Origin: Bacteroidales bacterium
GTDB taxonomy: Bacteria; Bacteroidota; Bacteroidia; Bacteroidales; UBA932
Reading direction: 5' to 3'
Length of the DNA stretch: 39,484 bases
Assembly (NCBI GenBank): GCA_028686425.1
Contig: JAQUBZ010000010.1
Location: forward strand, 1-39,484
Shown here: piece after piece, positions 3-9,049 of the stretch
How positions within the stretch are numbered: the first letter of the stretch is position 1
Layout: each line of letters begins with the position of its first letter
The notes under the pieces: generated by a model
The model's database searches: none
Told to the model about the DNA's origin: nothing
What the model saw: only the letters and a program-made list of their open reading frames with translations
Made by a program: the position numbers and the translations under genes

Positions 3-2096
3 ACCGACGGCAACTATTATTGGACAGTGAAGATTGGTGCAGCAGACCCTGTATGGATGCTCGATAAGGATGGCAACAAGATACGCACCACCGGAGACAA
101 CGGAAAAGATGCCGTTTCACCTCAGGTACGTATCAACTCCGCAACCAATATGTGGGAGATAAGCGTTGACGGAGGTGTTTCATGGGTCAGCACAGGTGTT
201 GCCGCGACAGGTGCCACAGGAGCGGCAGGCGTTTCTCCTCAGGTGCGAATCAACTCTGCTACAAATACATGGGAGATAAGTATCGACGGAGGTGTTTCGT
301 GGACAGGTACAGGCGTTGCAGCGACAGGTGCCACAGGAGCGGCAGGAAAGGATGGAAAAGATGGTTCTTCACCTGTCGTCTCAGTGAAACTTTTCACAGA
401 CGGCAACTATTATTGGACCATCAACGGCGAATGGCTGATTGTCGATGGAAACTTCGTACCTGCAACAGGTCCTCAGGGTCAGCGCGGAGCGACAGGTCCT
501 AAAGGAGATGCCGTATTCGCAGCAAACGGCATCAATAATACCAATGCCGATTATGTAGGATTTACCCTTGCCAACGGCACTAAGATTCAGTTACCCAGAT
601 ACAAGCCGTTCAAGATTGGATTGGATGCCGGCAATGATGCCATTACCCTGTCGGCAGTCGATACGACACTCTCTCTGAAGCTGCCGAGCGGGTTTGTGGA
701 AAGCGACTACAGTTCGATAATGGCAAGAATGATAACAAAAAATACTGAAGATTCAGACATCAAGACCAAGGCAGGTGTCGGACCGGCTTGGGAAGTGACT
801 GTCAACAAGCCTACTTTTACAGCAGCCGGTGTATGCAAAGATGATGCAGCCGTGAACATCAAGCCGATAATTGGTCGGCTTGCAGTCGGCGACAACTCCA
901 TGCTTGAAGTGAGCATCATAGATGCCGACGGAGGCAGTATCACCGCATCCAGAGTGATAACGGCAGGAGAGATAGCAACTTTCAATTCTTCCACTCATAC
1001 CGTAAACGTAATTACGAGGGGAAGCCTGACATCCGCTCTGGTGAACGATGCCGTAAACACAGGCAATACACTTATAATCAACGGATTACTGTCGGGAGAA
1101 TATACAGGAAATGATATAGGTACTTCTGATAATATTACCAGAGATTGGAACGCTTTGAGGAGTTACATACGGGGACGGTCCGCAAATATTGACCTGACAC
1201 TGAATAACGTAGCGAATGTTATAACTCACGCCCTATCTAACTGCCCGAATCTGGCATCGGTATCGGTGCCGAATGCTGTGTCTATCGAAAAGTGGGCTTT
1301 TGAGAATTGTACACAGTTAATCACTGTTGATTTGCCGAATGCTGTGTCTGTCGGAAAGGCTGCTTTTTATAAGTGTGGTCAATTGGCCACTGTTTCGTTG
1401 CCGAAAGCTGTATATATTAAACAGTATTCTTTTAGTGAGTGTTCACAGTTAGCTACTATCTCACTGCCGAATGTTACGTCTGTCGGAATGAGTGCTTTCT
1501 ATAGTTGTACAAAATTAGCCACTGTTTCACTGCCGAATGTTACGTCTATCGAAGATTGTGTTTTCTGTTATTGTTCAAATTTAAAAAATGCTGATTTGCC
1601 GAATGCTACGTCTGTCAAGTATTCCGCTTTTGAGAATTGTACACAGTTAACCACTATTTCATTGCCGAAGGTTACGTCTGTCGGAAATATGGCTTTTAAG
1701 AATTGCACTGCTTTAACCACTATTGATTTACCGAAGGTTACGTCTGTCGGGAATTGGGCTTTCTATGGTTGTACACATTTAACCACTATTGATTTGCCGA
1801 ACGTTGTATCTGTCAATAGTTTGGCTTTTGAGGAATGTACACAGTTAACCACTGTTTCGCTTCCGAAGGTTACGTCTGTCGGAAATATGGCTTTTCAGAA
1901 TTGCTCTGCTTTGACAACGCTCAAACTGGCAGCAGCCGGTGCAATTGATTCATTTGGAGACGATGTATTTTTAGGTGTCACTACCGGTAGTTGTGATTTA
2001 TATATCGGTGCAGCTGAAATTGCAACAGCGGCAGATCTGCCGAATAAAAAGTGGCGCGTCCGTACTTGGAAATCCATCTCACAATATAATCTGTAA
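3..2096 (+). CDS. Surface protein with DUF4988/PL29-type and collagen-like N-terminus and BspA-like LRR domain (5'-truncated)
   Basis: The frame is open to the left edge, so the gene starts outside the window. The GTG at 27 is an internal valine codon inside a TDGNYYWT motif that recurs near base 400, and is not a start. Visible order: GNYYWT...W segments of the DUF4988/PL29-lyase N-terminal type; two 39-residue repeats ending in GATGAAG collagen-like Gly-X-Y text; a linker GPQGQRGATGPKGD; a beta-rich domain of roughly 170 residues; then ten 22-residue leucine-rich repeats of the BspA/LRR_5 type with consensus LPxVTSVGxxAFxxCxxLTT, each with a cysteine at the same column. It ends in a short capping segment, KKWRVRTWKSISQYNL. 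Such proteins are normally exported adhesins or binding proteins, but the signal peptide lies outside the window, so location is inferred. A double-glycine peptide gene follows 68 bases downstream on the same strand and may be cotranscribed. The DUF4988 name is from family recall. Confidence 0.85.
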   Translation, partial: TDGNYYWTVKIGAADPVWMLDKDGNKIRTTGDNGKDAVSPQVRINSATNMWEISVDGGVSWVSTGVAATGATGAAGVSPQVRINSATNTWEISIDGGVSWTGTGVAATGATGAAGKDGKDGSSPVVSVKLFTDGNYYWTINGEWLIVDGNFVPATGPQGQRGATGPKGDAVFAANGINNTNADYVGFTLANGTKIQLPRYKPFKIGLDAGNDAITLSAVDTTLSLKLPSGFVESDYSSIMARMITKNTEDSDIKTKAGVGPAWEVTVNKPTFTAAGVCKDDAAVNIKPIIGRLAVGDNSMLEVSIIDADGGSITASRVITAGEIATFNSSTHTVNVITRGSLTSALVNDAVNTGNTLIINGLLSGEYTGNDIGTSDNITRDWNALRSYIRGRSANIDLTLNNVANVITHALSNCPNLASVSVPNAVSIEKWAFENCTQLITVDLPNAVSVGKAAFYKCGQLATVSLPKAVYIKQYSFSECSQLATISLPNVTSVGMSAFYSCTKLATVSLPNVTSIEDCVFCYCSNLKNADLPNATSVKYSAFENCTQLTTISLPKVTSVGNMAFKNCTALTTIDLPKVTSVGNWAFYGCTHLTTIDLPNVVSVNSLAFEECTQLTTVSLPKVTSVGNMAFQNCSALTTLKLAAAGAIDSFGDDVFLGVTTGSCDLYIGAAEIATAADLPNKKWRVRTWKSISQYNL
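114..347 (+). repeat. Two tandem 117-bp repeats (39 residues each)
   Basis: Copies at 114-230 and 231-347 both encode VSPQVRINSATN...WEIS.DGGVSW...TGVAATGATGAAG. They differ by a few codons only (for example ATG/ACA after the shared AAT). The unit combines a beta-strand module with a short collagen-like run. Degenerate further copies flank it: TDGNYYWT occurs at base 3 and again near base 400. Confidence 0.9.
1266..1925 (+). repeat. Ten 66-bp leucine-rich repeats (BspA type)
   Basis: Ten consecutive units of exactly 22 codons, each starting at LP (VP in the first). Each has an aromatic position before a conserved cysteine and ends in a TTI/TTV beta strand. Units 7 (1662-1727) and 10 (1860-1925) share 33 consecutive identical bases (1665-1697 and 1863-1895), which suggests recent duplication or gene conversion inside the array. 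Confidence 0.9.
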
Positions 2097-2164: not shown

Positions 2165-2320
2165 ATGACAAAACTCAAAGACGGTAAAACGCATCTTGCC
2201 GATGACGAATTGGTCAACGTTACAGGTGGTGACGAGTATGATGATACCTGCAATAGCTATCGTACTTATGAAGCATGTATGGAATCCGGTTCAGCTTCCT
2301 TTTGCCGTTGGGAGGTTTAA
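2165..2320 (+). CDS. Double-glycine leader peptide, putative natural-product or bacteriocin precursor (paralogue 1)
   Basis: A 51-residue reading frame. The leader is MTKLKDGKTHLADDELVNVTGG, where the DDELVNVTGG part is the typical Bacteroidales GG-type leader ending at a double glycine (residues 21-22). The 29-residue core has cysteines at 29, 38 and 47 in the pattern C-N-S-Y-x5-C-x8-C-x-W-E. The same pattern and a very similar leader occur in the peptide at 8790-8975, which is the main support that this short frame is real. No peptidase-type exporter or modification enzyme is nearby. Function is inferred: bacteroidetocin-like bacteriocin, signal or other secreted cysteine peptide. There is no obvious promoter of its own in the 68-base gap, so it is probably cotranscribed with the LRR gene. 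Oddity: after the TAA the same frame continues with KGKCIV and stops at 2351-2353, matching the length and fourth cysteine of the paralogue. Confidence 0.8.
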   Translation: MTKLKDGKTHLADDELVNVTGGDEYDDTCNSYRTYEACMESGSASFCRWEV

Positions 2321-2374
2321 AAAGGTAAGTGCATAGTATCAGGATTTCATTAGATTGAATTTCAAATGTAATCA

Positions 2375-2408
2375 AAAAGCGCCCGATAGTTTATTATCAG
2401 GCGCTTTT
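2375..2408. terminator. Bidirectional intrinsic terminator
   Basis: The stem AAAAGCGCC / GGCGCTTTT closes a loop that can form an extra GATA/TATC pairing. A-rich and T-rich arms give a U-tract on either strand. It lies between the converging peptide gene (2165-2320, plus) and the TonB receptor (ends at 2427, minus). Confidence 0.85.
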
Positions 2409-2426
2409 GTTGTATAGGGTTTATTA

Positions 2427-4646
2427 TCAGAACATCAGGTTGACTTTCACGAAGAAGTTTCTTCCCGGTTCGATGCTGATGCTTCCGCGGTTGGTGGAGA
2501 GGTGATTGGTGTATGCGGTATCGAAGATGTTCTCCACACCTGCAAAGCCCTGTATAGAGCATGTGCGGCTGAGGACGAATCGCTTGGTATAAAGGGCGAA
2601 GTCGAGGCGGACGTATCCGTCGGTGGCGGTTTCTCCCTGTGCTATCTTGTCTTGTCCGGCTGCAGCAATCAGGTTCAGTTCCATACTTCCTGCCTTATCA
2701 AAGGTGTATCTTGCTCCGAAACGCCCGGTAAGAGGTGGAATCAGCGGCAGGTCGGTATTTGACACGATGTCACGGCCGCGAGTGTAATATCCTGATAATG
2801 ACAGTACCAGGTCTGAGATAATATTGTACTCCGCCTTGATATCGGCTCCGTAGAGAAGGGCTTCGCTTACATTTGAATTTATTAATGCGTCAAGAGTCTC
2901 TTTTGAACTGTCTGCAGTCAGCTGATAGATGAATTTGCCTGGATCTTCAACAATCATGTTGTTGATTTTGTTCGTGAATATAGAAGTTTGGAGAGTAAAT
3001 TTGTTTCCCCATACGCGTACTCCGGCATCAACTCCGAGCCCGTCTTCGGGTTTCAGATTCTGATTGCCGAGACGTACGTAGTTGCCGAGGTCTATATATT
3101 TGAAGCGCTCTTCGAGTGACGGTGCTCTGAAAGAGCGTGATGCATTCAGCACCACATCTGCATTCTTGGTAAATTTATAGAGCAATCCGAGATTGGCACT
3201 CCACGATATATCGAAAGTGTTTCCGGCTGGAAATGTAATACGCTGACTTGCAGGTGGTTCGGCAATTGTGCCATTCATGTTGATGTAATCTACATCGTGT
3301 CCCTCTTCGTTATTCATCCATATTCCGTCAATGCGGCCGCCGAGTGTAACGATGAAACGGTTATCAAGGAAACGTGCTTCGTCCTGCATGTATATGCCGC
3401 CTGTAGTAGAGGATGAAGTAGGAATAGGAGTTTCTCCTCTTTCGATGTTGTTGGTCTTGATGATGGTTCCATCCGGTTTTTGTATATTCACAGTGACAAA
3501 CTTCTTCCTGTCGGTAACCAGATTTCTTCTGAAAAAGTCTGCTCCCGCGATGAAGGTATTATTGTCGGATAGATTGAAAACGGTCTGAAGTTGAGCGCTG
3601 TGGGTTTTGTGTATGGAGTTTGGAGAGAGTAGGGTAGGTGTGGTGAGCTGAATGTTTCCGTTTGGCATCACTTTACGTGTTACGGTGTTGGGATGAACTT
3701 CGACATCACGATTGTTGTCTTGGTAGAAATAACTGATTTTCAGAGATGTAAACTTATCCGTAAGGTTCTTGATCTCATAACTTGCATCGACAAGCATTCT
3801 ACCGATCTGTTTGTATGTTGCGTCTGCCGGACCTGGGAATGAAGAGCCTCCGGGGATTCCCACATTGTAGGACCTATTGTTCTGAAAATTAAGTTTAAAG
3901 AGGTGATTCGCAAGTGGTTTGAAGCCGAACTTTGCAGCGATGTTGCCGGTGGTGAACTGGCTGTTCGGAATCTGACCTTCAGGAGTACGGATGTTCCCGG
4001 CCTTTGAGTAAGTTCCGTTTACGCGCAGATACCATTTTGAGGAGCCTGTCCCAAGTGCAAGATTGTTAGAGAAGTAGTTGTTGACAGAGGAGTATCCCGT
4101 ATTGAATTCTCCTGAAAAATAAGGTCTGTCGGCAAATCTGCCCTCCTTGGTAATGATGTTGATGATGCCGCCCATGGCACCTGTGCCGTATAGTGAAGAT
4201 TGTGCACCTTTTATCACTTCGATACGTTCTACGTCATTTACATCTATCATACTCAGGGATGCTGTCAGGTCGGTGGCTGTTTCGACCCTGTCTCCGTCTA
4301 TGAGGGTGATGAGGCGGCTTTCGCCAAATCCCCTTACGTTTACATTGGTGGACCATACTCCGTCACCGCCGAATGCGATTCCGGGTTCTGTGGCAAGTAC
4401 GTTTGAGACTGTCAGGGCCGAATGTTTCCTAAAATTCAGTACAGGGGCAATCACGACAGAAGCGGGTGTTTCAATAACTTTTTTATTAACACGCAAACTT
4501 GTTATAGTACTCTCTTTAAGGGAGCGGATAGTGTCAGCTGCTGCTTTTGGCTCGGAATTGGTGCGGCCGAAAGAGGTGGTGGCGAAAAGCGAAGCGATTA
4601 CTGCAATTGCAAATAATCTTGAGTAGTGTTTAAATGTATTATTCAT
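2427..4646 (-). CDS. TonB-dependent outer-membrane receptor
   Basis: 739 residues. A Sec signal peptide (MNNTFKHYSRLFAIAVIASL...TTSFG) is followed by a plug domain at about residues 55-165, with SNVLATEPGI, VNVRGFGES, LIDGDRV, VERIEVIKGAQSSLYGTGAMGGIINIITK. The rest is a roughly 570-residue barrel ending in FFVKVNLMF with a terminal Phe. It is a short CirA/BtuB-style receptor: it lacks the N-terminal carboxypeptidase-regulatory domain of SusC proteins, and no SusD partner is present. It should bind and import a small ligand (metal chelate, cofactor or similar) using TonB energy. The TM1266-type gene immediately upstream overlaps it by 8 bases, so the two form one operon, divergent from an ABC importer at 5050-7359. 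Together these could carry one ligand across both membranes. The ligand cannot be read from the sequence. Confidence 0.9.
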   Translation of the reverse strand: MNNTFKHYSRLFAIAVIASLFATTSFGRTNSEPKAAADTIRSLKESTITSLRVNKKVIETPASVVIAPVLNFRKHSALTVSNVLATEPGIAFGGDGVWSTNVNVRGFGESRLITLIDGDRVETATDLTASLSMIDVNDVERIEVIKGAQSSLYGTGAMGGIINIITKEGRFADRPYFSGEFNTGYSSVNNYFSNNLALGTGSSKWYLRVNGTYSKAGNIRTPEGQIPNSQFTTGNIAAKFGFKPLANHLFKLNFQNNRSYNVGIPGGSSFPGPADATYKQIGRMLVDASYEIKNLTDKFTSLKISYFYQDNNRDVEVHPNTVTRKVMPNGNIQLTTPTLLSPNSIHKTHSAQLQTVFNLSDNNTFIAGADFFRRNLVTDRKKFVTVNIQKPDGTIIKTNNIERGETPIPTSSSTTGGIYMQDEARFLDNRFIVTLGGRIDGIWMNNEEGHDVDYINMNGTIAEPPASQRITFPAGNTFDISWSANLGLLYKFTKNADVVLNASRSFRAPSLEERFKYIDLGNYVRLGNQNLKPEDGLGVDAGVRVWGNKFTLQTSIFTNKINNMIVEDPGKFIYQLTADSSKETLDALINSNVSEALLYGADIKAEYNIISDLVLSLSGYYTRGRDIVSNTDLPLIPPLTGRFGARYTFDKAGSMELNLIAAAGQDKIAQGETATDGYVRLDFALYTKRFVLSRTCSIQGFAGVENIFDTAYTNHLSTNRGSISIEPGRNFFVKVNLMF

Positions 4647-4893
4647 TTTCTTTGTTCTTTAGAAGGACTGATTTTACCTGAATGCCGGATATACGCCCGA
4701 GTTGACCCGTAAGGGAACCAATTTCATCAGTAGTACCTTCAAGAACAAGCGAAATGATGCTTAGAGTGTTGTTTCTCGGCAAACCTTGTCTGCCTATGAT
4801 AATTTGAGAGTGACGGGAGATGACTTCGTTCATAATCTGAACGTTCTCTTTGTTCTCCACTTCGATTAAGACTGTTCCAATTCTCTTTTCCAT
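4639..4893 (-). CDS. TM1266-type small regulator (iron-only hydrogenase system putative regulator family)
   Basis: 84 residues, MEKRIGTVLIEVENKENV...VKSVLLKNKENE. The pattern RIGTVLIEVENKE, then a SQIIIGRQGLP-type segment and a LTGQLGRISGIQVKS-type helix-strand, matches my recollection of the TM1266/TIGR03959 family. That family has a small ACT/NikR-C-like fold and is often found beside hydrogenase maturation genes. No hydEFG or hydrogenase gene is in this window. The gene is the first of a two-gene operon with the TonB receptor (8-base overlap), so it may sense a metal or cofactor and tune the receptor. The regulatory role is a family label and has not been shown here. Confidence 0.75.
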   Translation of the reverse strand: MEKRIGTVLIEVENKENVQIMNEVISRHSQIIIGRQGLPRNNTLSIISLVLEGTTDEIGSLTGQLGRISGIQVKSVLLKNKENE

Positions 4894-4917
4894 CAGAATA
4901 CTTTCGGATTAGATTGT

Positions 4918-4976
4918 TATTGTTTGTTCCCCGCAGGACCTCGGTTTCAGATATTTCCTGACACCTCAGTTAAAAG
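4918..4976 (-). promoter_or_regulatory. Possible structured 5' leader of the TM1266-TonB operon
   Basis: Reading the minus strand from a TATCTTTG -7 element (5003 down to 4996), the untranslated leader of roughly 95 bases is unusually rich in short complementary words. TCAG can pair with CTGA around AAATAT, and CAGGA can alternatively pair with TCCTG; GAGGTGTCAGGA and CCGAGGTCCTGCGGGG lie close together. The mutually exclusive pairings would suit a regulatory leader. It matches no riboswitch consensus I can recall. Confidence 0.3.
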
Positions 4977-4995
4977 CGGTACTTTATTATCGGTG

Positions 4996-5003
4996 CAAAG
5001 ATA
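4996..5003 (-). promoter_or_regulatory. Bacteroidota -7 element (TATCTTTG) for the TM1266-TonB operon
   Basis: The minus strand reads TATCTTTGCACC, an exact TAnnTTTG. No TTTG is found at the expected 19-base spacing upstream. It faces the divergent importer genes. Confidence 0.45.
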
Positions 5004-5033
5004 TTGTTTTTTCGGATACTTTATATAATTTTA
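5003..5033 (+). promoter_or_regulatory. Weak candidate promoter for the ABC importer operon
   Basis: ATTG (5003-5006), 19 bases, then TAATTTTA (5026-5033). The spacing is right but both boxes deviate from TTTG / TAnnTTTG. The start codon follows 16 bases later. Confidence 0.3.
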
Positions 5034-5049
5034 TGGAAAATTATTTGAG

Positions 5050-6018
5050 ATGAACCGTATCATTATTTCCATATTGCTATTTATACTGTGCGCTTGTGGC
5101 GGACCATCGGGCAGAACCGGCTCCGCGGATGTCGCACAAACTATTCATATTGCTACCCTGAAAGGACCGTCAGCCATGGGGATGATTAAGATGATTGACA
5201 GTCTCTCTTATGCGCCATCTGATAATGATATTTCCATCAAGATATATACCGAGCCGATGCTTGTTCGCAAAGCCATGTTGGATGGAACGGCCGATTTTGC
5301 AGCACTTCCGATGAATATGGCAGCCGTGCTTTATAACAAGGGGCTTGATTACTCTTTAGCTGCCGTACCTGTAAGCGGGTCCCTATATCTTGCAGGAAGC
5401 GATACATCCATAACGAGATGGGAGGATCTCCGCGGACGAAAGGTCCATATTATGGCTAAAGGAATGACTCCTGATGCAATATTCAGGTATCTCCTCGTTC
5501 AAAACGGACTTACCCCTGACGAAGACGTGATACTCGACTATAACTTCCCCACCCACACCGACATGGCAAGTGCTCTCGCTTCGGGACGTGCCACTCTCGG
5601 AGTTATTTCGGAGCCGTATATCAGTATGGTCATGACTAAAAACAGTCTGGTGCATCCGATTATCGACTTAAACCGTGAATGGGCTAAAATACATGGATAT
5701 AATATCACAGAGACGGCTTTTTTAGTAAAAACCGAATTAATTGAAAGTCAGTCTGAACGTGTACAAGCCGTACTTGACGGTTATGCCGCTTCGATTTCGT
5801 GGGTCAATCACAATCAGGACAGCGCTGCGGCCCTGATGGTGAAGTTTCAGATAATTTCGGATACCTCTGCTGCCCGCATATCCATCCCGCAGTCACATTT
5901 AATTTTCAGACGTGCAAGAGATCATAAAGACGAGATAAATGCTTATCTTCGCACTTTATTTGAGATGTCACCAGGATTAATCGGGGGAAAATTACCGGAT
6001 GAAGCGTTTTATCAATAA
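5050..6018 (+). CDS. ABC importer substrate-binding lipoprotein, NMT1/SsuA-like
   Basis: 322 residues. The signal MNRIIISILLFILCAC has a lipobox L-C-A-C with the lipidated cysteine at 16. The mature part has the NMT1/THI5-SsuA type II periplasmic-binding fold signature: an early strand TIHIATLKGPSAMGMIKM, then EPMLVRKAMLDGTADFAALPMNMAAVLYNKG, DLRGRKVHIMAKGMTPDAIFRYLL and SGRATLGVISEPY. The family carries sulfonates, taurine, thiamine precursors and related small anions or aromatics. The ligand here is unresolved. It overlaps the permease gene by 20 bases and heads a three-gene operon. It is divergent from the TonB receptor operon, so a shared ligand is a reasonable inference. Confidence 0.85.
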   Translation: MNRIIISILLFILCACGGPSGRTGSADVAQTIHIATLKGPSAMGMIKMIDSLSYAPSDNDISIKIYTEPMLVRKAMLDGTADFAALPMNMAAVLYNKGLDYSLAAVPVSGSLYLAGSDTSITRWEDLRGRKVHIMAKGMTPDAIFRYLLVQNGLTPDEDVILDYNFPTHTDMASALASGRATLGVISEPYISMVMTKNSLVHPIIDLNREWAKIHGYNITETAFLVKTELIESQSERVQAVLDGYAASISWVNHNQDSAAALMVKFQIISDTSAARISIPQSHLIFRRARDHKDEINAYLRTLFEMSPGLIGGKLPDEAFYQ

Positions 6019-6757
6019 ACAAACAGGATATGGAGCACTTTCTGTGCTTCTGATGATAGCTCTGTGGAAAATGGCTTCTATTCACTATGGTTCGGATTTT
6101 ATCCTTCCAAGTCCTGAAAAGACACTCGCGACCACTTTCAGGCTGCTTGGTGACGTGGCATTTCTCTCAGTGGCGGGGAGCACTGTACTGCGCGGACTTG
6201 CCGGTTTTGCCATAGCGATGGTGCTTGGTATAGGATTAGGGATTCCTGCGGGCATGAGTCAGGGTTTCAGAGCTTTTATGACCCCGTTTTTGGTAGTAAT
6301 CCGCTCAATTCCGGTGGTAGCATTTATTTTGATTGCCCTGATTTGGTTTTCTTCAGATGATGTGCCTGTTTTTATCGCTCTTCTGACCATGTTTCCACTT
6401 ATATGTACCAATGTTATAGAGGGTATTAAAAATGTTGACCACAATCTGATAGAGATGGCTGAATTCTATCATGTCGGACGTGGCAGGATTATCAGAGAAG
6501 TGTATATTCCGGCCATCGCACCTTTTCTGTTCAGTGGGGCTTCAAATGCCATGGGAATAGGGTGGAGGGCCATTATTGTCGGAGAGGTCCTGAGTCAGCC
6601 GCGTTACGGTATCGGCACTGTGATGCATAGCGCGCAGACGTTTCTCAATATTGATGTCCTCATCGCATGGACTCTTATCGCAGTGCTTATAAGTTATATC
6701 TTCGAGCAGATAATCAGAGGATTCGAGCACATTTTGATCAAATGGAGGACAAAGTGA
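5999..6757 (+). CDS. ABC importer inner-membrane permease, SsuC/TauC-like
   Basis: 252 residues with about six hydrophobic helices. Examples are GYGALSVLLMIALWKMA at the N-terminus, GLAGFAIAMVLGIGLGIPAG, FLVVIRSIPVVAFILIALIWF and VLIAWTLIAVLISYIFEQII. The EAA-type coupling loop lies around EMAEFYHVGRGRIIREVYIP, which is where the ATPase docks. Family BPD_transp_1 permeases of this size pair with NMT1-like binding proteins. The start is inside the binding-protein gene (20-base overlap), and its stop TGA shares a base with the ATPase start, indicating translational coupling. Confidence 0.9.
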   Translation: MKRFINKQTGYGALSVLLMIALWKMASIHYGSDFILPSPEKTLATTFRLLGDVAFLSVAGSTVLRGLAGFAIAMVLGIGLGIPAGMSQGFRAFMTPFLVVIRSIPVVAFILIALIWFSSDDVPVFIALLTMFPLICTNVIEGIKNVDHNLIEMAEFYHVGRGRIIREVYIPAIAPFLFSGASNAMGIGWRAIIVGEVLSQPRYGIGTVMHSAQTFLNIDVLIAWTLIAVLISYIFEQIIRGFEHILIKWRTK

Positions 6758-7359
6758 TGAAAAGTGTCGAACATCTATACAAAAGTTATGGCCCTCTGGT
6801 GCTGTTTAAAGACCTCACGATGGCATTTGAAGATGGTCGGATTACAACCATTTTAGGACCATCAGGCTGCGGAAAGACCACTCTTCTGAATATCATCGGA
6901 GGGATTGAAACTCCTGATAGCGGAATACTTACGGGTTTTGACGACTGCCGTTTCTCATATATTTTTCAGGAGCCGCGCCTATTGCCTTGGAAGAGTGTAC
7001 GTGGCAATATCGAATTTGTTGTGAATCGTGCACTGACACCGGCGCAGCGACATGATAAGGTGGAAGAGCTGATGAATCGTGTCGATCTCTCGGCGTTTGC
7101 CGATTATTATCCTTCGCAGTTAAGTGGAGGAATGAGACAGAGAGTCTCCATCGCGCGCTCATTTGCCGTATCCTCTGACGTCATCCTCATGGATGAACCA
7201 TTGAACGGTCTTGATTCGGCACTTAAACGAACCATAATTTCATGGTTCAAACAGCTGTGGAGCTCCGATCCGCGCACCGTAATCTATGTCACGCACGATG
7301 AAGATGAAGCGAGACTGCTTGGAAGCAGCAGAGTTGTAAAGTTGAAATCTTCACTATAA
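6757..7359 (+). CDS. ABC importer ATP-binding protein, SsuB-like
   Basis: 200 residues from the ATG at 6757 (MKSVEHLYKSYG), chosen because it overlaps the permease stop (TGATG) and places the first strand correctly. An ATG at 6742 in frame would add five residues. Walker A GPSGCGKTT, Q-loop FQEPRLLPW, signature LSGGMRQR, Walker B VILMDEP, D-loop and H-loop VTHDEDEA are all intact, so it should hydrolyse ATP to drive import. It is short for SsuB (typically 240-250 residues), lacking a C-terminal extension. Last gene of the importer operon; no clear terminator follows. Confidence 0.9.
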   Translation: MKSVEHLYKSYGPLVLFKDLTMAFEDGRITTILGPSGCGKTTLLNIIGGIETPDSGILTGFDDCRFSYIFQEPRLLPWKSVRGNIEFVVNRALTPAQRHDKVEELMNRVDLSAFADYYPSQLSGGMRQRVSIARSFAVSSDVILMDEPLNGLDSALKRTIISWFKQLWSSDPRTVIYVTHDEDEARLLGSSRVVKLKSSL

Positions 7360-7394
7360 ATCAAAGATAATTAGCTTATTTCAAAATTATTATG

Positions 7395-7425
7395 TAAGTT
7401 TGTGACGGTGTAATCACTATACTTG
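7395..7425 (+). promoter_or_regulatory. Candidate promoter elements before the lipoprotein/peptide genes
   Basis: TAAGTTTG (7395-7402) is an exact -7 match and TATACTTG (7418-7425) a near match. Neither has TTTG at a 19-base distance. One of them probably drives 7449-8975. Confidence 0.35.
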
Positions 7426-7448
7426 CACCTACATATAAATCATCAAAA

Positions 7449-8741
7449 ATGAAAAAAATAATATTTCTATTGTCAACAGCGATGTTGCTGCTGGCTGTCA
7501 GTTGCACAAAAGACATTATTCATCCCCAGAAATGTACTTTGGATGAAATTGCCGGTACTTGGATCTGGACTTTGGAAGATGGTGAATCAGTTCCAAATCC
7601 TAAAATCGAGATAGGTACCATTAAGGCTGACGGAACTGAGGAATATTGGTCTATTGCAGATGACAAGTGGACCAAAACGTTGAATCCTATTTCAATTACC
7701 GAAGACGGCATCCTTCACCTGAGCGATATTGGTGATTGTTATATAGTCAACTTTGACCAACTGACACTGACCATTGAAACCAAAAAAGACAGAGTGAGGT
7801 ACTCTGCCAACAGGGTGATGAATATTACTAATGAACAGGCAGTAGGAACATGGACATGCGATGAATATAAAGTAAGCGAATCAGTAGTTTGTAAAAACTA
7901 TCAACTGATTATCAATGAGGATGGTACATATATTATGTCGTATAATGGAGCTGCTGAATCAATTTCAGGAAAATATGGCTTCTGCAATGATTTCTTTATT
8001 TATCAGAGCAATCGTGCCGGCACTATCCTATTCGTTTTTGGCATGGATGAAACAGGGCTTGTCTGCAAACATCTGACAAAAGCTGAAGACGGAACGCTGG
8101 TCCAAAATACAATGCACAAGAAATCCTATCAGTCGAATCTCGAAACTCAACTCGCCGGCGGATGGATATGGACCAGAGAGAATGATGTACGTGTCCCCAC
8201 CTCCAATATGGAACTATCTTTCTATAATCCTATGATTGGAATACATGATTATCAGACATTTGGTGAAGATGCCGAGCACATTTTGGAGCCATATTATTTA
8301 GATGGAAGAACGATTAGATATCCGGAAGATACGGAAGACCTACCTTATGAGACCATTATGAGCATCGATGACTCGCTGTTAGTAACAAAAGGCTCTGACG
8401 GCATCACCTACAGGGCATCACGTATTTTTATGGAAAATCCTCTTAATGAAAAGATTATAGGGACATGGGATTGCCGTGAGTTTATAGATGGTGATACCAA
8501 CAGGGTGACTCATGTTTTCGATAGGAATGGATTGGTTATCTGCAAAGAGAATGACACCAAGTCTTTTTACGGAACATATAGATTGTATAATAGCTTGTTA
8601 ATTATGCAGTTTAGTGATTCGGATGAAATTGAAACTATTTTATGGATTATCAAAGACAAAAAAATAGAGAACGGTACGATGACATTCAGCAGACTTCTCA
8701 AAGATGGCACATCTATTGAAAATGTACTTGTTAAAAGGTAG
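7449..8741 (+). CDS. Lipoprotein with duplicated lipocalin-like GTW units
   Basis: 430 residues. Signal MKKIIFLLSTAMLLLAVSC with lipobox A-V-S-C, lipidated cysteine at 19. Four units each begin with a glycine-tryptophan strand: IAGTWIWTLEDGESVP (about 34), AVGTWTCDEYKV (about 131), LAGGWIWTRENDVRVP (about 235), IIGTWDCREFIDGD (about 335). Units 1 and 3 share GxWIWTxE followed by VP; units 2 and 4 share GTWxC. The protein therefore looks like an internal duplication of a two-unit lipocalin-like module. Lipocalin-like GTW barrels bind small hydrophobic ligands, but no ligand or partner is evident. The double-glycine peptide gene begins 48 bases after its stop and is probably in the same transcript, so a role in handling or tolerating the peptide is possible but unproven. 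Confidence 0.75.
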   Translation: MKKIIFLLSTAMLLLAVSCTKDIIHPQKCTLDEIAGTWIWTLEDGESVPNPKIEIGTIKADGTEEYWSIADDKWTKTLNPISITEDGILHLSDIGDCYIVNFDQLTLTIETKKDRVRYSANRVMNITNEQAVGTWTCDEYKVSESVVCKNYQLIINEDGTYIMSYNGAAESISGKYGFCNDFFIYQSNRAGTILFVFGMDETGLVCKHLTKAEDGTLVQNTMHKKSYQSNLETQLAGGWIWTRENDVRVPTSNMELSFYNPMIGIHDYQTFGEDAEHILEPYYLDGRTIRYPEDTEDLPYETIMSIDDSLLVTKGSDGITYRASRIFMENPLNEKIIGTWDCREFIDGDTNRVTHVFDRNGLVICKENDTKSFYGTYRLYNSLLIMQFSDSDEIETILWIIKDKKIENGTMTFSRLLKDGTSIENVLVKR

Positions 8742-8789
8742 TTAATCACTTCATACGGCAATGATAATATACAATTAAAACCAATCAAT

Positions 8790-8975
8790 ATGAAACTAAA
8801 AAAATCACACAGCATCAGCGACGATGAATTGACTAATGTCACAGGTGGAGCAGACCCATACGACTCTTTCTGTAATTCGTTTAAGAACGAGGGAGAATGT
8901 AACAGCCACTACTCGGACGGCAGTTGTGTCTGGGAAGATTTTTATAAAGCCGGTTTTGTCTGCATAAAAAAATAG
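8790..8975 (+). CDS. Double-glycine leader peptide, putative natural-product or bacteriocin precursor (paralogue 2)
   Basis: 61 residues. The leader MKLKKSHSISDDELTNVTGG ends in a double glycine at 19-20 and matches the GG-type leader of Bacteroidales peptide precursors (DDELxNVTGG). The 41-residue core has cysteines at 28, 37, 47 and 58: C-N-S-F-x5-C-x9-C-x-W-E by residue count here, or x8 when counted between cysteines as in paralogue 1, followed by a tail ending VCIKK with the fourth cysteine. Four cysteines would allow two disulfides. No radical SAM, lanthionine or peptidase-exporter gene is close by, so export and processing must be supplied from elsewhere. It lies between a lipoprotein gene and a terminator, with an ABC efflux locus converging beyond. 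Bacteriocin, signal or other function is inference. Confidence 0.85.
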   Translation: MKLKKSHSISDDELTNVTGGADPYDSFCNSFKNEGECNSHYSDGSCVWEDFYKAGFVCIKK

Positions 8976-8991
8976 ACATTACTCTTCAATC

Positions 8992-9049
8992 ATAAGAAAA
9001 ACTCTCCAAAAGCTGCAAATAGTGCCATTGGAGAGCTTTCTTATTTTTA
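8992..9049. terminator. Strong bidirectional terminator
   Basis: Long inverted repeat: ATAAGAAA-CTCTCCAA pairs with TTGGAGAG-TTTCTTAT around an 18-base loop, followed by a T-run. It separates the peptide gene from the converging ABC permease gene (stop at 9058). Confidence 0.9.

Follow-up and report, generated by a model that had tools for sequence, protein, structure and literature searches.

The bacteroidetocins, class IIf bacteriocins of the Bacteroidetes, are described (Coyne et al. 2019, PMC6671954) as short peptides with a double-glycine (GG) leader and a core of about 40 amino acids (aa), with four cysteines in bacteroidetocins A and B. According to the same study, their gene region holds an ATP-binding cassette (ABC) exporter with a C39 peptidase, a transmembrane (TM) protein and mostly a thiol oxidoreductase, on which full activity depended in the tested strain. 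A second study (PMC10352776) reports GG-motif precursors and C39 exporters as a recurring pair in Bacteroidales. Here we describe two genes for GG-leader cysteine peptides, P0001 and P0002, on a contig of 39,484 nucleotides (JAQUBZ010000010.1; the window, meaning this whole stretch) of a Bacteroidales bacterium, together with their family and a candidate export operon in the same draft genome. The genome consists of 51 contigs, of which the window is C36 and the operon-bearing one is C3.

The two precursor genes (Table 1) were confirmed by translation at the positions, and with the leaders and lengths, given in an earlier note on this DNA. The P0001 core reads C-NSYRTYEA-C-MESGSASF-C-R-W-E, followed by V and a TAA stop codon; that of P0002 reads C-NSFKNEGE-C-NSHYSDGS-C-V-W-E and follows the pattern C-x8-C-x8-C-x-W-x9-C, its fourth cysteine, absent from P0001, lying 11 residues past the third. 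Common to both is C-x8-C-x8-C-x-W-E; the earlier note had the first spacing right and put the second at 8-9 residues, which is exactly 8 in both cores. Leader and core motifs occurred together in two of the 109 open reading frames (ORFs) of 40-95 aa in the window and in none of 20,873 random ORFs from 150 first-order Markov sequences, each of the window's length, where the leader motif alone occurred once and the core motif alone three times. P0002 as query matches the P0001 gene at E 2.7e-7, and the family hidden Markov model (HMM) A2, which includes P0001, matches it at E 4.8e-19. The alignments of A2 and of a further model, A3, extend past the TAA of P0001 (window 2165-2340); this suggests that P0001 may be a C-terminally truncated copy. 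On sequence grounds, the two window genes are members of one real, though rare, cysteine-peptide family.

At least five family members are present in the draft genome: P0001 and P0002, P0004 (contig C3), P0007 (C21) and P0008 (C9). Model A1, an HMM of four sequences, gave these five at E < 0.001, two further frames of the genome (E 0.14 and 0.39) being set aside, and the identical five were returned by A2 and A3, into which they are built. A leader pattern applied to the DNA found only P0001 and P0002 in this genome, and protein search added the third. Beyond it, members were found in a metagenome (P0003), in a second species of the genus (genome G145; P0010) and, twice, in another genus of the family (G655). 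The small cysteine family proposed in the earlier note is thereby borne out, and the HMM search of related genomes that it had recommended yielded homologues in which three cysteines and the tryptophan are kept.

The nine members have cores of the pattern C-x7-8-C-x4-8-C-x-W-x4-11-C (the last cysteine is missing from P0001; P0007 and P0011 carry extra cysteines), and invariant across the nine are Met1, one Asp, one Leu, one Gly, three Cys and Trp. The double-glycine motif is present in all of them, as GA in P0007 and GC in P0003. Leaders are 17-31 aa long, the net charge is -9 to +4 and the predicted mature cores measure 29-49 aa. Cores diverge strongly between paralogues; P0003 is 73% identical to P0002 with equal core spacing. 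The GG signal model bacteriocin_sig (TIGR01847) scored P0004 at 17.3 bits against a cut-off of 15.7 and P0002 at 13.5, under the cut-off, and left P0001 unmatched.

The family is rare in every collection searched. Among 5.8 billion proteins, P0002 matched one other protein, and the only match in the protein search with P0004 was a 60-aa fragment of P0004; such searches find only relatives sharing exact 5-residue words; the database cluster of P0002, with one member sequence, represents 10 contigs. Used as a query against 100 related genomes, P0002 matched one, its own. Matches were found to A1 in five of 398 genomes of the family, to A2 in two of 393 of the order and to A3 in two of 40 of the genus, counted after setting aside A1 matches in G057 and G204 (stop inside), a match in G584 (a 40-aa frame) and weak matches on contig C9 of G145 (E 0.2) and on contigs C127 and C24 of G655. 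The leader pattern matched in 10 of 199 family genomes, and none of the nine loci outside the own genome had a GG-leader ORF with at least two core cysteines. Neither window precursor has a Pfam or NCBIfam match over cut-off or a PHROGs match at E 1, and P0002 was unmatched in a plasmid collection. A match to a Paramecium surface antigen (E 0.03) was taken as reflecting only spaced cysteines and C-x-W, and Protein Data Bank (PDB) sequence matches of A3 to the Erns glycoprotein (E 0.06) were taken as chance. An AlphaFold2 model of P0002 (mean predicted local distance difference test score 62) shows the core as a short helix plus a hairpin; as the model has no PDB match at E 0.001, no fold is claimed.

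P0004 lies within an operon on the 12.6-kb contig C3, whose genes all run in one direction and lie no more than 63 bases apart. The operon comprises a 64-aa protein resembling the N-terminus of HlyD, an exporter, another ABC subunit, a protein of 308 aa that matches GNAT weakly, P0004 (leader NDEELQNVTGG) and, as the last gene named, P0005. The exporter is a 713-aa C39 peptidase/ABC protein, with 911 bits to NHLM_micro_ABC1 (TIGR03796; cut-off 853). The best model for the second ABC subunit is NHLM_micro_ABC2 (TIGR03797), at 655.6 bits under the cut-off of 709.4, and the 64-aa protein matches positions 2-39 of the 421 of NHLM_micro_HlyD (TIGR03794) with 22.7 of 156 bits. C3 also carries, next to the operon, a GreA/GreB-NUDIX gene and, upstream on the other strand (locus L017, 2671-3768), a gene for an FlxJ-family methyltransferase (608 bits; cut-off 560). 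The C39 peptidase model PF03412 was over cut-off twice in the genome, and one of the two exporters shares its operon with a family member. The earlier note had held that absence of a C39-type exporter from the genome would count against secretion; the outcome was the opposite. Its statement that no exporter or modification enzyme is linked to the peptides holds for the window neighbourhood and fails for the genome. The second C39/ABC exporter (692 aa; contig C17, locus L018, 885-6085) is accompanied by genes that by eye look TolC-like and adaptor-like, and adjoins a gene for a 66-aa GG-leader peptide (KELNSSELQTRGG) without cysteine.

P0005 (481 aa) combines C39-like, VKOR and DsbA-like thioredoxin regions. 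It has the VKOR fold with the loop cysteine pair and CxxC that characterize VKOR, and its six expected redox cysteines are invariant across ten sequences. The C39-like domain is apparently without the catalytic Cys and His, and matches of this region to PCAT1 were of low probability only. Of 7,997 candidates scored in a protein search, ten besides P0005 itself reached E 1e-10, and relatives were present in 16 of 393 genomes of the order (E 1e-5) and nine of 398 of the family (E 1e-10), the own genome counted, with 21-33% identity to P0005 except for that in G145 (49%). P0005 is likely to be a dedicated oxidase, encoded on a contig other than the window. The disulfides expected in the earlier note gain indirect support from this VKOR/DsbA-type enzyme in the operon of P0004.

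Like the bacteroidetocins, the present family has short GG leaders, cysteine cores, a C39 exporter and a thiol oxidoreductase in the P0004 operon. Leaders are longer (22 and 20 aa in the window precursors, against 15-16 aa), the exporter is of the NHLM type with two ABC subunits, and four of the five precursors lie apart from it. A bacteroidetocin-type region of exporter, TM protein and oxidoreductase is missing beside both window genes; the P0004 region does have exporter and oxidase, and no five-TM gene was recognised there by eye. By description, leader, core motif and gene layout set the family apart, and the bacteroidetocin study (PMC6671954) is the best precedent for the mechanism. With NHLM/NHLP systems (TIGR03794, TIGR03796 and TIGR03797; Haft et al. 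2010, PMC2887384) the operon shares an HlyD-like protein, a peptidase-ABC protein, an ABC subunit and a Gly-Gly cleavage motif, and in both cases a genome encodes several precursors. Unlike there, only the N-terminal part of the HlyD-like protein is present (64-65 aa in two species), the ABC2 subunit is under cut-off and a VKOR fusion takes the place of a cyclodehydratase or LanM as partner enzyme. Nor do the precursors carry a nitrile-hydratase-like or Nif11-like leader, judging by the NCBIfam matches of P0001, P0002 and P0004. By the tests run, the family is neither bacteroidetocins nor NHLP precursors.

We know of no VKOR partner of CtA. The CtA leader (RELTDEELMEMTGG), from a C39 exporter solved with its leader (PCAT1; PDB 6v9z, 7t55-57 and 7s5j), aligns without gaps to the family leader; the alignment is statistically weak (E 0.09) and spans the leader and a few residues only, and this likeness lends weak support to recognition of the leader by the exporter C39 domain. 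Turning to the oxidase, the Synechococcus VKOR is fused to a thioredoxin-fold partner in one chain. P0005 shares with such fusions (PDB 3kp9, 4nv5) the loop cysteine pair, the CxxC and a thioredoxin-fold partner with CxxC. It differs in that the partner is DsbA-like, in an additional N-terminal C39-like domain apparently lacking the catalytic residues, and in that its gene adjoins that of a GG-leader cysteine peptide. Judged by titles and beginnings of abstracts, none of the papers listed in searches of the open-licence literature, most of them capped at 8-20 papers, deals with a C39-VKOR-thioredoxin fusion with GG peptides, and the words peptidase, C39 and Bacteroid are absent from the VKOR phylogeny PMC4555120. 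The parts are thus of known kinds (GG leaders, C39 exporters, NHLM cassettes, VKOR fusions); new, as far as the open literature was searched, are the core family, its dispersal, the mini-HlyD and the tie of the C39-VKOR-DsbA fusion to GG-leader cysteine peptides.

We consider it probable that the window genes are orphan precursors whose products are cut, exported and disulfide-bonded in trans by the single NHLM-type operon on C3. From genes, domains, motifs and co-occurrence we infer leader recognition, cleavage, oxidation and release. The exporter C39 domain would recognise the leader and cleave after Gly-Gly during export, the C39-like domain of P0005 would keep the leader bound, and the DsbA-like domain, oxidised by VKOR with quinone as electron acceptor, would form the disulfides of the core. 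The mature peptides are predicted to act extracellularly.

Scattered peptides and machinery co-occur within the genus: TIGR03796 is over cut-off in two of 40 genomes (at most 21 first-look candidates being scored per genome) and family peptides are found in the same two, an overlap with a chance probability of 1 in 780, where n = 2, A3 includes P0010 and many of the genomes are incomplete. The G145 operon has the gene order of C3 and no precursor between the GNAT-like and VKOR genes; its exporter scores 918 bits to TIGR03796 in a frame with two in-frame stops. The single precursor of that genome, P0010, lies on another contig (C4), and the trans arrangement is therefore seen again.

More distant relatives of P0005 were inspected at 26 loci from 22 Bacteroidales genomes, with 1.5-kb flanks where the contig allowed. 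A GG-leader ORF with at least two core cysteines was found at eight of them, two being from one genome (G473), against none of 25 control loci (ABC-transporter loci plus earlier pattern or weak HMM matches, a non-random sample) and 11 of 520 shuffled ones; this count used a looser leader pattern, chosen after a stricter one that matched at the own locus and at two of 19 distant VKOR loci, and its p-value is accordingly post hoc. Both CxxC motifs lie in one frame at 17 of the 26 loci, including seven of the eight positive ones (L049 being the eighth). The P0005 enzyme family seems to be tied to GG-leader cysteine peptides in general, because the peptides at distant loci have other cores. At the eight loci (L022, L024, L026, L030, L031, L037, L043 and L049), the cores appeared by eye unrelated to each other. 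Two observations weigh against a strict link between peptides and machinery: for G655, which carries two family peptides, the search of family genomes listed no P0005 relative, and the short contig of locus L041, with a partial protein 41% identical to P0005, shows neither an exporter nor a GG peptide.

Separately, genome G027, from another genus of the same family, contains arrays of ELSDEELEKVTGG-type GG-leader peptides (L060, L065, L074 and L079; contigs C106 and C119). About ten different peptides, encoded on either strand, were read; their cysteine cores vary and in many cases end in C-x-C, and the precursor set is unusually large. The 13 matches of this genome, at E up to 10, were kept separate; those read share the leader and are without the C-x-W core.

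Antagonism of related bacteria is the role of the mature peptides that we rate as most likely, though tentatively; it is the first choice because the bacteroidetocins are closest in build and the paralogues diverge strongly. A classical cationic pore-former is disfavoured because the window cores have net charges of -5 (P0001) and -3 (P0002); typical pore-forming bacteriocins, unlike these cores, are not acidic. Possible, and rated slightly lower, is that P0005 represents a leader-guided private oxidase, in which a dead C39 domain joined to VKOR and DsbA-like domains grips the leader and knits disulfides during export, so that one hub operon matures dispersed, fast-diverging precursors of a whole class of several core families missed by cluster mining. 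Some Bacteroidales are said to lack general disulfide machinery.

The orphan peptides might instead, as the second choice, be signals, pheromone-like or quorum, exported by the C3 operon towards a receptor encoded elsewhere. C39-exported GG peptides do include signals, according to one report (PMC7018657). The window cores are small and acidic, and no immunity-like gene was recognised beside P0001 or P0002 in the ORF list and Pfam matches. We nevertheless regard a signal role as rather unlikely, given that the ORF lists of the five neighbourhoods, read by eye, have no receptor or regulator in common and that the paralogue cores diverge strongly, an unusual trait in signals read by a single receptor.

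It is more doubtful that the window copies are relics, decaying or silent, and that only the C3-operon copy works. P0001 does lack the fourth cysteine, with family HMM alignments running past its stop. TAnnTTTG is the -7 box of this bacterial group, and it is absent from the 150 bases upstream of both window copies, as it equally is upstream of P0004, which lies within an operon; the lone copies P0007 and P0008 carry it at -36 and -31. Moreover, both window leaders are intact, and P0002 keeps four cysteines, has a close metagenomic relative of equal spacing and stands for 10 contigs in its database cluster. Less probable still is that the window peptides are substrates of the C17 exporter, the C3 operon serving its own precursor only: C17 does carry a C39/ABC exporter with TolC-like and adaptor-like partners by eye, but the adjacent candidate has a different leader and no cysteine, the window leaders match that of the C3 precursor, and the genus distribution tracks the C3-type exporter. 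That the genes are chance reading frames, as their very short length and missing database matches could imply, is refuted by the Markov control and by paralogues and homologues in other species that keep three cysteines and the tryptophan, and its probability is negligible.

The frame of the leucine-rich-repeat gene extends to the contig start; this gene and that of a 430-aa protein, which has a weak lipocalin-like GH43_C match under cut-off (18.7 of 23.4 bits), end 69 and 49 bases before P0001 and P0002, respectively, and read-through into the precursors is therefore likely. P0001 is possibly co-transcribed with the former gene and P0002 with the latter. A promoter and terminator scan of the window gave background level; the terminator scan took loops of 3-8 bases only, and both inverted repeats noted by eye are missing from its list.

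Table 1. Precursor genes, their leaders and associated features (window positions unless a locus is given).
Feature	Position	Strand	Remarks
P0001, GG-leader precursor 1, 51 aa	2165-2320	+	translation
P0001 leader	residues 1-22		MTKLKDGKTHLADDELVNVTGG; ends DDELVNVTGG; core 29 aa, 3 Cys
P0002, GG-leader precursor 2, 61 aa	8790-8975	+	translation
P0002 leader	residues 1-20		MKLKKSHSISDDELTNVTGG; ends DDELTNVTGG; core 41 aa, 4 Cys
DUF4988/BspA-type leucine-rich-repeat gene	27..2096	+	Pfam LRR_5 213.5 bits, DUF4988 45.4 bits
430-aa protein gene	7449..8741	+	lipoprotein-type signal by eye
Terminator-like inverted repeat	2375..2408	.	AAAAGCGCC ... GGCGCTTTT; by eye; 3' of P0001, between convergent genes
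Terminator-like inverted repeat	9002..9036	.	CTCTCCAA ... TTGGAGAG, then T-rich; by eye; 3' of P0002
Mini HlyD-like protein, 64-65 aa	L017 5188-5382 and L040 524-721		two species, matching operon position

Peptide mining in Bacteroidales mainly seeks a precursor beside an exporter, and searches for adjacent precursors would miss most of this family because four of its five members in the genome lie apart from the exporter. The leader and the C39-VKOR-DsbA enzyme together offer a means of finding such precursors. If the fusion is a leader-guided oxidase, it would explain how bacteria thought to be without a general disulfide pathway secrete disulfide peptides, and it would provide a portable module for making disulfide-bonded peptides.
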